This document shows positions 2,192 through 23,918 of a stretch of DNA of 64,000 nucleotides, in pieces. The stretch spans positions 1 through 64,000 of the forward strand of contig JAFWTC010000027.1 in the NCBI GenBank assembly GCA_017519045.1, given 5' to 3'. The translations under genes were made by a program, and so were the position numbers. Each line of letters opens with the position of its first letter. Within the stretch, counting starts at the first letter, position 1. The DNA comes from Candidatus Methanomethylophilaceae archaeon. GTDB lineage: Archaea; Thermoplasmatota; Thermoplasmata; Methanomassiliicoccales; Methanomethylophilaceae. The notes below the pieces were generated by a model. That model was given only the letters and a program-made list of their open reading frames with translations, had not been told where the DNA came from and ran no database searches.

Positions 2192-2545
2192 GTGGATAGA
2201 ATTGTCCTTCAAGATAATAAAATAGATACATGGAAAACTGAATGGATGGGTAATCTGTATCGATTCTAGATGTGGTTTCTTTGAATCACTGGATAAGGTT
2301 TTGACGAGTCATATAAAATGGGCTGTCTTTAAGTAGATTAATAGCAATTCGGCATGGTTTTCGGAGTTCGGAAATCATAGTAGTCCGTCGGGAGGCACGA
2401 TGGACCGGGCGCCCCATCCTGGAATGAATGAATCGTCATGGATCCGTACGCGTTTCGCCGGAGGATCCGATCTCGGCCGGCCGGCGGGAACGGCGTCGTC
2501 TATCTCTCTGGCAATCATTATTATCGATACCGCGGATACGTGGGC
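2192..2545. other. Intergenic region between UPF0339 and the zinc-ribbon/LRR gene
   Basis: About 350 bp of A+T-rich sequence to about 2400, then G+C-rich. It should hold the leftward UPF0339 promoter (A+T-rich 2205-2235) and the rightward promoter of the next gene; cattattatcgatacc at 2517-2532 is the nearest A+T element to the chosen start at 2546. No RNA gene, repeat or coding segment was seen. Confidence 0.4.
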
Positions 2546-4246
2546 ATGGCCCTTATATCGCTCAAGTGTCCCAACTGCTCCGGGGACATAGATCTCGAGG
2601 ATTCCCGCGAGTTCGGGTTCTGCATGTACTGCGGTTCCAAGGTCCTCATCACCAAGGACGTCAACCACATCAACATCGAGATGTCCGTCAAGGACCAGAG
2701 GGCCAGCCTCAAGCCCCTCGCCACGGCGTACTGCCAGCAAGGCGAGTTCTCCAGGGCCGAGGAGATGACCAAGAAGCTGATACTCATCAACGCCGCCGAC
2801 GCCGACATATGGCGCATAGACGGCGTGTGCGAACTCATGAAGAGCGACTACCCGTTCTGCGATCCGCCCGAGCCCGCCAAACGCTCGCTGGAGAACAGCT
2901 GCGTGCTCACGGGGGTCCAGTACGGCAAGGACTTCGTGGAGGGGATGGCCATCGAGATGTTCAAGGGGATGGCCAAGCGGGGGGACGTCTAGGCCCAGTA
3001 CAAGCTGTCCTACCTGTATTCGAACAGCGTGCGCTACCGCTCTGACGAGGAGGCCGTCAAGTGGTTCGAACAGGCCTGGTCCAAGAGCCCCTGCAAGAAG
3101 CCCATACGCACGATCATCAAGGGATTCAAGTCCTATGAGCTGCCGAAGGGCGCCTCCCGCGTCGAGACCGACATGTTCCGCGACTGCAAGAGGATGACCA
3201 AGATAACGCTCCCGGACACCGTGAAGTACATCAACGCCCGCGCGTTCTCCGGATGCAAGTCCCTGGAGGCCCTCGACGTCCCTCCCGCGGTCAAGTCCAT
3301 AGGCGACCGCGCCTTCCTCGGATGCACCTCGCTGTCCTCCGTGAAGATCCCGCCTTCGGTGAAGGAGATCGGGTTCGACGCGTTCTCCGGATGCACCTCG
3401 CTGTCCTCCGTGGAGATGTCGCAGGTGGAGTCCATAGGGGTCGGAACCTTCTCCGGATGCAGGTCCCTGGCTTCGGTGTCCCTTCCGTCCACGGTGAAGT
3501 CGATAGGCAGGGGGGCCTTCTCGGACTGCTCTTCGCTCACGGTCTTGGCCATCCCGCCCTCGGTGACCTCCATAGGAGAGAACGCGTTCAACAACTGCAA
3601 CGCCCTCACTTCGGTGTCGTTCCCCCCGTCATTGAAGACCATGGGTGGCCGCGCTTTCTACGGATGCAGGTCCCTGCCCTCGGTCGAGCTTCCCCCTTCC
3701 CTGACGGCACTGGACGCCGGGACGTTCCAGAGCTGCGTGTCCCTGACCTCCGTGACGATTCCGCCCTCGGTGGAGTCCATCGGCGAGAACGCCTTCCGCG
3801 AGTGCACCTCCCTCAGGTCGATCGTCTTGCCGTCCTCAGTGGTCTCGATAGGCGAGAACGCCTTCCGCGACTGCACGGCGCTCTCCTCCGTCTCGTTGTC
3901 GTCGTCTTTGGAGAATATCGGGGACAAGGCCTTCTTCGGGTGCAAGTCACTTGCTTCGGTGGAGATCCCCTCGTCGGTGAAAACCATAGGCAATGCGGCG
4001 TTCTCCGGATGCGCGGCGTTGACGTCCATCTCTATCCCCCAGTCCGTGGAGACGATCGGGGACCGCGCGTTCTCGCTGTGCACTTCCCTCGAATCGGCCG
4101 TAGTCCCCAAATCCGCGACGATCGGGAAGGAGGTTTTCCCGACGAAGACCAAGATCACGTATCGCGGAGGCTCCGCGCCTTCCGGCGGATCGGACGAGCC
4201 GTCGGAGAAGAAGGGGCTTAAGGGCCTGTTCGGACTCAAGTTCTGA
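2546..4246 (+). CDS. Zinc-ribbon, Sel1-like, BspA-type LRR protein interrupted by one in-frame TAG
   Basis: With the TAG at 2990-2992 (codon 149) read through, the frame is one 566-residue protein. Residues 1-40 hold a zinc ribbon (KCPNCSGDI, then CMYCGSK). Residues about 45-185 are a TPR/Sel1-like helical part. From about 209 come some 14 BspA-type leucine-rich repeats (LRR_5). The sequence before TAG (MAKRGDV) and after it (AQYKLSYLYS) together make a normal Sel1 repeat, so both halves belong to one gene. A GTG at 3029 could restart a 405-residue LRR product. None of the other gene ends I checked uses TAG. Options are amber read-through (pyrrolysine is known in Methanomassiliicoccales), a nonsense mutation (TGG to TAG), or a sequencing error. 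A membrane GTPase gene follows after 79 bp. Confidence 0.75.
3170..4130 (+). repeat. Tandem 69-bp repeats encoding 23-residue BspA-like LRRs
   Basis: About 14 degenerate units, each carrying a motif of the form AFxGCxSLxSVxIPxSVxxIG. The key spacing is Phe-x-x-Cys followed by Ser/Ala-Leu, recurring every 23 codons. These are protein-coding repeats and not a CRISPR array: there are no unique spacers and the frame stays open. Confidence 0.85.
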
Positions 4247-4325: not shown

Positions 4326-5759
4326 ATGAGAAGGCTGAACAAGGCGGTCTGGCGCCTCACATTCCTGATAGCGGCGATTCCCGCCTGTGCAGTCTCGTAC
4401 TGGCTGTTCGGCATATTGCTCACGGTGTTCCCGTTCGAGTACATCGTGGACCTGAACGACGAGTTCCTGGGCCTGGACATGTTCTGGCTTCAGTTCATTC
4501 CCGTCGTTTTCGGGTTTTTGGGGTTCATCGTCAACAGCCTCACGTCCATGAGCGAGGTCTTCGATCTGGTCCCGGAGCCGTCCGACCCCAAGGATTTCCC
4601 GGTGCCGTTCATCGGCATCAGCAAGGGCGTCTTCGAGATGTTCCGCACGATGCTGATCATCACAGGCTGGATGGGGATCTTCTGCATCCTGCTGATTACC
4701 ATCCCCCTCTGCCTGCCGGGATTTGTGGTGTCGGCCTTGAGCGTCCTGTTCGCCTTCCCCGTCCTGGCCGCGATAGATGCCGTCTACTTCGCCGCCATGC
4801 ACATCGCCAAGGCCGTCGACAGGCGCCAGTACGACCGCAACACCGTCTGCTTCGTGTGCCCTGAATGCGGCAAGACGTCCCCCCGTCCCGTGTACGACAT
4901 AGACGGCCTGTGGGTCAGCGGCCTCCGTCCCAGCGCCAAGGGCGTGCTGTCGGTGGAGATGGAGAGTTCCACCTCTCCATGTTTCGGATCCAAGGGCGGC
5001 AGGAAGGACCTTCAGCAGTCGTGTCCCGAATGCGAGTCCCTCGTCGCCACCAAGGAGGGGAGGCCGTTCGTCGTGTCGATGGCCGGTGCGAAGTCCTCCG
5101 GGAAGACGAGCTTCGTCCTGTCGGTTACCGGCGAGCTTATCTCGTCGTCCGGAAACGGGAACGCCTCCGCCGTGCGCAATTATCATTTCGAGCACGACTC
5201 GGACCTTCTAGACTACCGCTCGGGCCTCTGCAGGCCTACGCCCGAATCCAACTGGAAGCCTCATCTGGCGATGATCGAATCGGCCAGATTCGTCACCTGC
5301 AGGAACCTGTACATGTTCGACGTGAGCGGGAAATTCTTCACCGGGGCGGTGGAGACCGACATCCAGCCTCAGTACGCCTTCAACGATGCCATAGTGTTCA
5401 CGTTGGATCCGACTTGCGCCGACCCCGCCGGTGTCGCGAACTCGGCCTACATCGGGTTCATCGAGAAGTACCGCCAGTTCAACAGGCTGGACGCCTCCGA
5501 GAGGATCTCCGTCCCGTTGTTCGTCGTCGTGACGCGTGCGGACAAGAAGGGCCCGCTGAGCGGTCTGGAAGGGAAGGAGCTCAAGGACAGGATGGCCGAG
5601 GGCGGCTATTTCAACCTGGTCAACACGATCGAGAGGGACTTCTCGTCGGTGTCCTTCTTCTCCTGCGCTACCAATAGGGAGGACGGCTCCTCGAGCAGGG
5701 TCATGAGGCGCATCTGTGACGCGACGGGGTCGGAGTTCGGACAGTTCTTCAAAGGATGA
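4326..5759 (+). CDS. Membrane-anchored TRAFAC-like GTPase with split zinc ribbon
   Basis: 477 residues. Hydrophobic segments at about 10-35, 50-75 and 105-165 form an N-terminal membrane part. Next come CxxC pairs C178/C181 and C233/C236, probably one zinc ribbon. The P-loop GAKSSGKT is at 254-261. A DxSG (MFDVSGKF) may serve as the switch II element, and VVVTRADKK near 395 stands at the position of the base-recognition NKxD. The layout resembles the TRAFAC-type GTPase domains Aravind's group describes in bacterial conflict and signalling systems. The P-loop assignment is direct; the exact family is inferred. The upstream neighbour also has a zinc ribbon, so the two may act as a pair on the inner face of the membrane. 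Confidence 0.75.
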   Translation: MRRLNKAVWRLTFLIAAIPACAVSYWLFGILLTVFPFEYIVDLNDEFLGLDMFWLQFIPVVFGFLGFIVNSLTSMSEVFDLVPEPSDPKDFPVPFIGISKGVFEMFRTMLIITGWMGIFCILLITIPLCLPGFVVSALSVLFAFPVLAAIDAVYFAAMHIAKAVDRRQYDRNTVCFVCPECGKTSPRPVYDIDGLWVSGLRPSAKGVLSVEMESSTSPCFGSKGGRKDLQQSCPECESLVATKEGRPFVVSMAGAKSSGKTSFVLSVTGELISSSGNGNASAVRNYHFEHDSDLLDYRSGLCRPTPESNWKPHLAMIESARFVTCRNLYMFDVSGKFFTGAVETDIQPQYAFNDAIVFTLDPTCADPAGVANSAYIGFIEKYRQFNRLDASERISVPLFVVVTRADKKGPLSGLEGKELKDRMAEGGYFNLVNTIERDFSSVSFFSCATNREDGSSSRVMRRICDATGSEFGQFFKG

Positions 5760-22200: not shown

Positions 22201-23204
22201 GCATCGTTGAATGGCTGAAGGAAGACCCTTCGGCGGGAAAGGAGCGTGCGGATGGCAGAAGGAACAGACCCTCCGTAACAGAGTGGCTGAAGGGCGACGC
22301 AGGCAAAAGGCCCGAAGCCCCCGTCGAAAGACCATCCTACAGCATGGGATCGGACTACGACGTCCAAATCAGCATACGCAATATCGGGAAGACCTACGTG
22401 AAGAACGGCATCGAGACGAAGGCCATAGACGACATTTCAATCGATGTCAGGAAGGGGGAGCTCGTATCGTTCATAGGCCCGTCAGGCTGCGGCAAGACGA
22501 CGCTTCTGAACCTGATCGCCGGTCTCCTTCCGCCGACCTCCGGCGTCGTGTACGTCGGCGACAGGGAGTGCGTCGGGCCGGGCAGGGACAGGGGGATGGT
22601 GTTCCAGGACTTCGCCTTGCTGCCTTGGCGCACGGTCAAGAGCAACGTGGAGCTGGGACTGGAGATCGCCGGGGTGCCGAAGGCGGAGCGGAGCGCCAAG
22701 GCCGATGAATACCTGCGCATCGTGGGCCTCGAAAAGTTCGCGAACTCCCACATCAACGAGCTCTCCGGAGGCATGAAGCAGCGCGTAGGGATCGCCAGGG
22801 CGCTGATCGTGGAGCCGGACGTCATCCTTATGGACGAACCGTTCGGAGCCTTGGATGCCCAGACCAGGAACCTAATGCAAGCGCAGCTGATAGAGATCCT
22901 CAAGAACACCAAGCAGACCATCATATTCATCACCCACTCCGTGGACGAGGCGGTGTACCTTTCGGACAAGGTCGTGGTCCTGACGAAGAGGCCTACGACC
23001 GTCAACGAGGTCGTCGAGATACCGTGGTCGAGGCCGAGAAACCGCACGACGCCCGAGTTCAACAGCATCAAGAGGGAGATAGTCGAATACCTCGAGCATG
23101 AGAACGTGATGGTAGACCGATGCCATCCGTCTCCGCTGGAATCGTCCGCGGTTCCAGCGGTCATGCCCGGACATTTTTCCTCGGATTCCGGCGTCTCGAC
23201 GTGA
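22197..23204 (+). CDS. ABC transporter ATP-binding protein, SsuB/TauB type
   Basis: 335 residues. Walker A is GPSGCGKTT, the Q-loop FQDFALLPWRTV is typical of SsuB/TauB, signature LSGGMKQRVGIARAL, Walker B VILMDEPFGALDA, and the H-loop FITHSVDEAVYL. An unusual N-terminal part of about 45 residues has two copies of a short motif (VEWLKEDPSAGK and VTEWLKGDAGK); the permease N-terminus has a similar LKAWLMEDIG. The start is set by the 4-nt overlap with the permease. The last about 330 bp overlap the open frame of a convergent ABC ATPase; the SsuB reading looks native to near the end. Confidence 0.9.
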   Translation: MSIVEWLKEDPSAGKERADGRRNRPSVTEWLKGDAGKRPEAPVERPSYSMGSDYDVQISIRNIGKTYVKNGIETKAIDDISIDVRKGELVSFIGPSGCGKTTLLNLIAGLLPPTSGVVYVGDRECVGPGRDRGMVFQDFALLPWRTVKSNVELGLEIAGVPKAERSAKADEYLRIVGLEKFANSHINELSGGMKQRVGIARALIVEPDVILMDEPFGALDAQTRNLMQAQLIEILKNTKQTIIFITHSVDEAVYLSDKVVVLTKRPTTVNEVVEIPWSRPRNRTTPEFNSIKREIVEYLEHENVMVDRCHPSPLESSAVPAVMPGHFSSDSGVST

Positions 23205-23918
23205 TCGGCCGAGGAACGCGCCCTTGATGTTGGACCTCAGGGAGCCAAGGCGGTCCGTGACGTCGCGGATCTTGCCGGATTCCATATAGAAAAGGCGCTT
23301 CCCATAGATCGCCGCGTCGTACTCGTGCGTGACCATCATGACCGTGGTGCCCGCTTCGTTTATCTCGGAGAGCAGCCTCATGACCGCGTCGGTGCTGTCC
23401 CTGTCCAGGTCCGACGTCGGCTCGTCGGCCAGAAGAACGTCGGGCTTGTTGGCCAGGGCCCTTGCGATGGATGCCCGGCGCTGCTCCCCACCGGAGAGCT
23501 CCCTGGGGAACCTGTCGGCCAAGTCCCCTATCCCCAGCCTGTCGAGGATGTCGTGCGCCTCCTGCGGGCTCTTCCCGCGTCCGTAAAGCTGGGTCGGAAG
23601 GAGGACGTTCTCCAGCACGGTCAGCGATTGGAGGAGGCCATGCTTCTGCGGAACGTAGCCTATGACATCGTTGCGGAACCTGGACGCCTCCCTGTCGTTC
23701 ATCGAGGAAAGGTCCCTGCCGGCGACCGTCACCCTGCCGGAGGTCGGACGCTGCACGCCTGCGACCATGTTCAGAAGGGTCGTCTTCCCGCTGCCGGATC
23801 TCCCCATGATCGCCACGAAGTCCCCTGATTCGAGCTTCAAGGACACGTGGTCCACCGCATTAAACGCTATGTTCCCGCGCACGTAGGTGACGGTTGCATC
23901 CTGGATCTCGATCAGCAT
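22872..23918 (-). CDS. LolD/MacB-type ABC ATPase, stop apparently lost
   Basis: Residues 1 to about 230 are a normal LolD-like ATPase: Walker A GRSGSGKTT, Q-loop YVPQKHGLLQSL, signature LSGGEQRRASIARAL, Walker B VLLADEPTSDLDRDS, H-loop MMVTHEYDAAIYG. A LolD protein should end near 23200. Here the frame runs on for about 120 arginine-rich residues antisense to the SsuB gene, which is not credible coding sequence, so the true stop was probably lost or shifted. It follows the FtsX-type permease gene directly (adjacent stop and start) and must work with it. Confidence 0.8.
   Translation of the reverse strand: MLIEIQDATVTYVRGNIAFNAVDHVSLKLESGDFVAIMGRSGSGKTTLLNMVAGVQRPTSGRVTVAGRDLSSMNDREASRFRNDVIGYVPQKHGLLQSLTVLENVLLPTQLYGRGKSPQEAHDILDRLGIGDLADRFPRELSGGEQRRASIARALANKPDVLLADEPTSDLDRDSTDAVMRLLSEINEAGTTVMMVTHEYDAAIYGKRLFYMESGKIRDVTDRLGSLRSNIKGAFLGRSRRDAGIRGKMSGHDRWNRGRFQRRRMASVYHHVLMLEVFDYLPLDAVELGRRAVSRPRPRYLDDLVDGRRPLRQDHDLVRKVHRLVHGVGDEYDGLLGVLEDLYQLRLH

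Follow-up and report, generated by a model that had tools for sequence, protein, structure and literature searches.

Does the TAG codon at positions 2990-2992 end a gene, or does it stand for an amino acid inside a longer one? In the stretch of DNA analysed here (the window, 64,000 nucleotides), the forward-strand frame 2438..2992 closes with this TAG, and the same frame then runs on for 417 codons to a TGA at 4244-4246. An initial annotation had proposed an amber codon, read as pyrrolysine or another residue, inside a zinc-ribbon/Sel1/LRR gene, and had kept a fresh pseudogene and a sequencing error as further options. The TAG is kept in four of four orthologues and the pyrrolysine machinery is present in the genome, which speaks for read-through: on comparative grounds the TAG is very probably a sense codon, with pyrrolysine at residue 149 and translation continuing to the TGA at 4246.

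A gene that spans the TAG

The genome that holds the window (G000) is that of a methanogenic archaeon of the gut, a 1.9-Mb assembly in 86 contigs. At the window's GC content of 59%, an open frame flanking a TAG is not rare by itself: when both strands and all frames are counted, 4 of the 740 TAG triplets in the window are preceded by 150 or more open codons and followed by 300 or more. A long open frame on both sides was therefore dropped as proof of read-through.

Coding potential is present both upstream and downstream of the TAG according to a codon-usage gene caller, in agreement with the initial annotation. The gene probably starts at ATG 2546, where all four orthologues start, which makes the TAG codon number 149 in a gene of 566 codons that closes with TGA 4246 (2546..4246, forward strand). 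The predicted protein begins with a zinc ribbon (2567..2632; C8xxC11 ... C26xxC29), whose cysteines are invariant in all four orthologues and whose Pfam zinc-ribbon matches are weak, none being over the cut-off. TPR-like helices follow at residues 48-98 (2687..2839), where there is a profile match to TPR structures and where AlphaFold2 places helices at 48-64, 68-85 and 88-98 with low confidence. A Sel1 repeat region at residues 133-182 (2942..3091) crosses the TAG, and BspA/TpLRR-type leucine-rich repeats occupy residues 195-541 (3128..4168; Pfam LRR_5, E 1e-102; Foldseek best match 4fs7). The part after the TAG scores 343 bits for LRR_5, against a curated cut-off of 27.7.

The earlier claim that a Sel1 repeat joins over the TAG is upheld by a profile of the four orthologues, which matches Sel1 structures across the site (4bwr, E 1.6e-10; 6onw, E 1.4e-6), a Sel1 helix pair extending over it; the Pfam Sel1 match alone, with the single read-through sequence as query, is sub-threshold (E 0.0021). 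The modelled helix 148-160 adjoins the TAG codon. Since no signal sequence is evident by eye at the N-terminus (MALISLKCPNC), we take the protein to be intracellular, and its zinc ribbon, TPR/Sel1 and LRR parts suggest a putative function as an intracellular binding scaffold.

The same TAG in four species

The read-through protein served as query against 31 genomes of the genus, and a profile of its N-terminal part as query against 102 genomes of the family. Full-scoring relatives lie in three genomes beyond its own (G008, G013 and G020); in the profile search of the 102 genomes four proteins score 432-452 bits and the next best 214. The three orthologues are 64, 70 and 62% identical to the window's protein across its entire length. 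Each of the four genes has a single TAG, always at the identical codon, in the contexts GDV-TAG-AQYKLSYLYSNS, GDA-TAG-AQYKLAYLYSNS, GDV-TAG-AQYKLSYLYSNS and GDV-TAG-SQYKLSYIYSNS, and the orthologue-bearing MAG records (SIG7, Tb.RUG.20 and RGIG6908) were separately assembled. A scan of named genomes, which may omit records of the window's own genome, returned 13 loci. Three of them span the full query of 215 residues, with best segments that are 69-78% identical; these loci, in Tb.RUG.20, RGIG6908 and SIG7, are the same orthologues as those on contigs C85 of G013, C11 of G020 and C62 of G008, not extra ones. A paralogue in G012 (L072) spans 215 residues at 44%, and the nine others are shorter or weaker. 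No further orthologues were found in viral contigs.

All four orthologue-bearing species appear to be rumen inhabitants. The sequences are best explained if the TAG became fixed in an ancestor shared by at least four rumen Methanomethylophilaceae species and was retained after they diverged. The four genes sit in differing neighbourhoods, and the distances between their proteins disagree with the UMP kinase tree. Horizontal transfer was considered and rejected: the synonymous distances of the gene are close to those of UMP kinase in five of the six pairs (for G008-G020, 0.74 vs 0.81; the sixth pair, G013-G020, gives 1.12 vs 1.68), and vertical descent with fast protein change therefore suffices.

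Selection on both sides of the TAG

Over the whole gene the synonymous distance among the four orthologues is 0.74-1.12. Among the 12 codons that follow the TAG, five are identical, four vary silently and three change the amino acid to a similar residue (A/S, S/A, L/I). Past the TAG, none of the four genes has an in-frame start codon ahead of these 12 codons, the first in-frame ATG, GTG or TTG lying 13, 39, 22 and 22 codons on. The conserved TAG, together with silent change in codons that precede any start, excludes both a sequencing error and a fresh pseudogene and speaks against re-initiation.

Purifying selection acts on the frame on both sides of the TAG. Across the six pairs dN/dS is 0.10-0.35 upstream of it, 0.21-0.75 in the 70 codons downstream and 0.22-0.50 in the LRR part; the highest value in those 70 codons, 0.75 for the pair G008-G020, is the weakest support for downstream selection. 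A neutral codon would be retained as TAG in all four genes by chance in about 0.6% of cases, rising to 7.8% at half the neutral rate and 18.5% at a third, rough estimates that depend on a fourfold-site tree length of 2.19 from only 111 sites, near saturation. Columns identical in all four make up 93 of 509 overall and 43 of 148 upstream of the TAG. The retention of the TAG does not go beyond that of other well-kept codons of the gene and is unremarkable.

Decoding machinery and the use of TAG

The Pyl cassette that the initial annotation had proposed to look for is present in genome G000. Its pylS (258 bits, NCBIfam cut-off 178), pylB (426, cut-off 348), pylC (307, cut-off 248) and pylD (199, cut-off 150) are grouped on contig C8 with a tRNA-Pyl of anticodon CTA, called by ARAGORN in a scan of the window and 15 further stretches of the genome. 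One TAG each is found in mtbB and mttB, on the same contig, and in both mtmB copies. Five of seven genomes carry pylS over the cut-off (G000, G008, G012, G019 and G020); it was not found over the cut-off in G013, one of the four orthologue genomes (82% complete), or in G021 (61% complete). A PYLIS-type RNA element, which is not obligatory, gave no Rfam match after the TAG up to E 5, nor did structured RNA emerge there from folding z-scores (0.26, 1.07, -0.94 and 0.23) or covariation (term +1.06).

Stop codon usage was sampled in the window and the 15 stretches, 359,519 bases of G000 in all, with one simple codon-usage gene caller made for this analysis. The 261 called gene ends comprise 217 TGA, 28 TAA and 16 TAG. 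The initial annotation had held that every gene stop it checked in the window is TGA or TAA. This largely stands for the 51 called window genes (44 TGA, 6 TAA and a single TAG, that of the zinc-ribbon/Sel1/LRR gene), but it fails at least for an ABC ATPase frame on the reverse strand (22872-23918, 348 codons), which ends in TAG and was skipped by the caller for overlap. The last ~110 codons of that frame are antisense to a convergent ABC ATPase gene at 22344-23204 on the forward strand.

Reading of the translations places 8 of the 16 TAG ends inside genes, takes 4 as seemingly real ends and assigns 4 to spurious antisense frames. The eight interrupted genes are the zinc-ribbon/Sel1/LRR gene, a UMP kinase, an ABC transporter, a 757-aa protein, two giant LRR proteins, mttB and mtbB. 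The seemingly real ends are two in L083, one in L084 and L090:3904; three of them have another stop within 14 codons, and L090:3904 does not. TAG may thus still terminate in places. The frame that ends at L090:3904 (L090:3904-5352, reverse strand) and window 4326-5759 (forward strand) encode paralogous membrane proteins which, by eye, have a zinc-ribbon-like segment and a P-loop-like motif. The window copy stops at TGA; the L090 copy stops at TAG, and the 149 codons that follow look non-coding and include three further TAGs.

In a start-free count over the same 359,519 bases, in-frame coding extends beyond 10 of 27 TAG, 14 of 214 TGA and 3 of 30 TAA stops (Fisher p 5e-5), where the 10 TAG pairs include at least two judged spurious (window 22872 and L092:2246) and the UMP kinase is absent from them. 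Most of the TGA pairs are adjacent genes, with a start codon within 4 codons in 9 of 14, vs none of the 10 TAG pairs. The best reading of this usage is a near-complete reassignment of TAG in this archaeon, with pyrrolysine as an ordinary sense residue.

Species-specific and conserved TAGs in other genes

Four TAG-interrupted genes that are not methyltransferases were compared across genomes. Two of them, the UMP kinase and the ABC transporter, have species-specific TAGs; the zinc-ribbon/Sel1/LRR gene and the 757-aa protein keep theirs. UMP kinase is taken to be essential. Its gene (pyrH_arch, over the cut-off; L085:7743-8471 on contig C4) is the single match in the genome at E 1e-30, and its TAG falls in the GGT-x-PGHTTD loop, at a position held by E, V or T in relatives. 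The TAG occurs in 1 of 26 genomes, the other 25 having GTC (9), GAG (8), GAA (3), ACC (2), GTG (2) or GTA (1). The TAG of the ABC transporter is missing from its three nearest orthologues, and both TAGs look like passing changes. The 757-aa protein (L090:5352-7622 on contig C68), which has no Pfam match, keeps its TAG in all three genomes that have the protein (relatives L135 and L136), in the context VPFAP[VE]-TAG-GYLA. A paralogue of the zinc-ribbon/Sel1/LRR gene in G020 (L097, contig C21) has a sense codon at the TAG site and a TAG elsewhere, between its Sel1 and LRR parts.

Residue 149

Comparison at the site, which the initial annotation had suggested, yields TAG in four of four orthologues and a variable residue in paralogues (K, D, M, M, R, W, Q and Q in eight alignments from seven loci). 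The equivalent residues in Sel1 structures, with the alignments read by eye, are K, Q, W, I, D, T and A in 4bwr and K, R, M and D in 6onw. With Lys standing in at position 149, an AlphaFold2 model built from four sequences (mean pLDDT 77.6, with blocks of 73-80 round the site) puts this residue second in helix 148-160. Because the site is variable and lies at the first turn of a helix, a pyrrolysine there is more likely to be tolerated or structural than catalytic; against a merely tolerated residue counts the fact that four orthologues keep the codon.

Probable pyrrolysine read-through and its alternatives

We infer that pyrrolysine is actually incorporated and that it is the residue at 149, rather than another amino acid, because a known decoding system is present. 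The tRNA-Pyl with its CUA anticodon would be charged by the short PylRS of the order, and pyrrolysine would be put in at residue 149, in the first turn of the first Sel1 helix. The ribosome would then proceed through the Sel1 and leucine-rich repeats to the TGA at 4246. If TAG scarcely ever terminates translation in this genome, no special RNA signal would be needed.

The alternative that survives best, although we consider it improbable, is that the TAG is both a stop and a read codon. Two products would then arise, a short one with the zinc ribbon and TPR and a long one with the LRR, in a ratio set by the supply of pyrrolysine, and hence of methylamine, and the TAG would be conserved for this switch. 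Such a switch would fit the position of the TAG, exactly where the N-terminal part gives way to the Sel1/LRR part in all four genes, and the low expectation of about 0.6% for a neutral codon, even if this grows to 8-19% when the rate is reduced to between a half and a third of neutral. It fits poorly with the species-specific TAGs in the UMP kinase and the ABC transporter, where a switch is implausible, with the lack of structured RNA found after the TAG, and with the apparent rarity of TAG stops.

Still less probable is a pair of separate genes, in which translation does end at the TAG and another gene begins downstream, for example at GTG 3029. The window does have this GTG 13 codons past the TAG, opening a 405-aa frame, but it is present in one of the four genes; the first in-frame starts of the others are at +39, +22 and +22, yet the codons right after the TAG are conserved. 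Nor would a second gene keep AQYKLSYLYSNS in frame with the first, or finish a Sel1 repeat over the junction.

We give slightly less credence again to a TAG that is sense but decoded by a tRNA other than tRNA-Pyl, such as a near-cognate Gln, Lys or Tyr tRNA. With the tRNA scan covering the window and 15 stretches, another CUA tRNA could lie elsewhere, but the genome has a complete Pyl system including the CTA tRNA. A sequencing error or fresh pseudogene, which would require nothing besides a lone TAG, is refuted by the identical TAG codon in four of four separately assembled species at a synonymous divergence of 0.74-1.12, with purifying selection on both sides, and both options of the initial annotation can be discarded with near certainty.

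Within the preferred reading, pyrrolysine read as a sense residue, it is conceivable, if unlikely, that pyrrolysine at 149 is selected for itself, with a binding or redox role for its side chain where the Sel1 helix begins, or that the TAG ties the proportion of short and long protein to methylamine. If true, a selected pyrrolysine at 149 would be a conserved archaeal function of this residue outside the methylamine methyltransferases. As the unrelated 757-aa protein also keeps its TAG in three of three genomes, a small set of such proteins may exist.

Comparison with known systems

Several features of the gene have known counterparts. BspA/TpLRR proteins such as 4fs7 share its LRR_5 repeats (Foldseek E 6e-17, TM 0.82 by target length). 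The 4fs7 match is limited to the LRR part; the present protein has a zinc ribbon and a Sel1 part as well, and several solved BspA/TpLRR proteins are titled cell-surface proteins, whereas the present protein is presumably intracellular. The mtmB, mtbB and mttB genes share with it an in-frame TAG and the same decoding machinery, in the same genome. In those methylamine methyltransferases pyrrolysine is catalytic, whereas the site of the present gene varies among paralogues. Kivenson and colleagues are said to have described, in Science in 2025, an archaeal code in which all TAG is pyrrolysine; a general reading of TAG as pyrrolysine is likewise what we propose here.

The closest precedents come from the same order. 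In 'Ca. Methanomethylophilus alvus', 16 putative non-methyltransferase Pyl proteins were listed (Borrel et al. 2014, PMC4153887, Table 7), and TAG makes up 1.6% of its stops. Like the present gene, these are non-methyltransferase genes with an in-frame TAG. They were predicted through BLAST joins in one genome, and half have TAG-free homologues. The set includes a 389-aa 'Sel-1 domain containing protein' (AGI86303.1), whose length differs from that of the present protein (389 vs 566 residues); the available text of PMC4153887 reports no cross-species conservation of its TAG, whereas that of the present gene is kept in four of four genomes. In ISO4-H5, a rumen member of the order, 46 genes have an in-frame amber codon (PMC5011839), and the genes named in the available text of that paper do not include a zinc-ribbon/Sel1/LRR protein such as this one. 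Within the literature searched, pyrrolysine and leucine-rich repeat terms co-occur only in PMC7883539, whose available text draws no link between them, and in one unrelated paper, and no description of the present protein was found.

Pyrrolysine as a sense residue in non-methyltransferase genes has thus already been published for this order; the present gene is a new, unusually conserved member of this kind, and has better comparative support than a single-genome prediction. Conserved in-frame TAGs show that standard annotation splits such genes in two, and they are a natural place to seek real use of pyrrolysine beyond methylamine metabolism.
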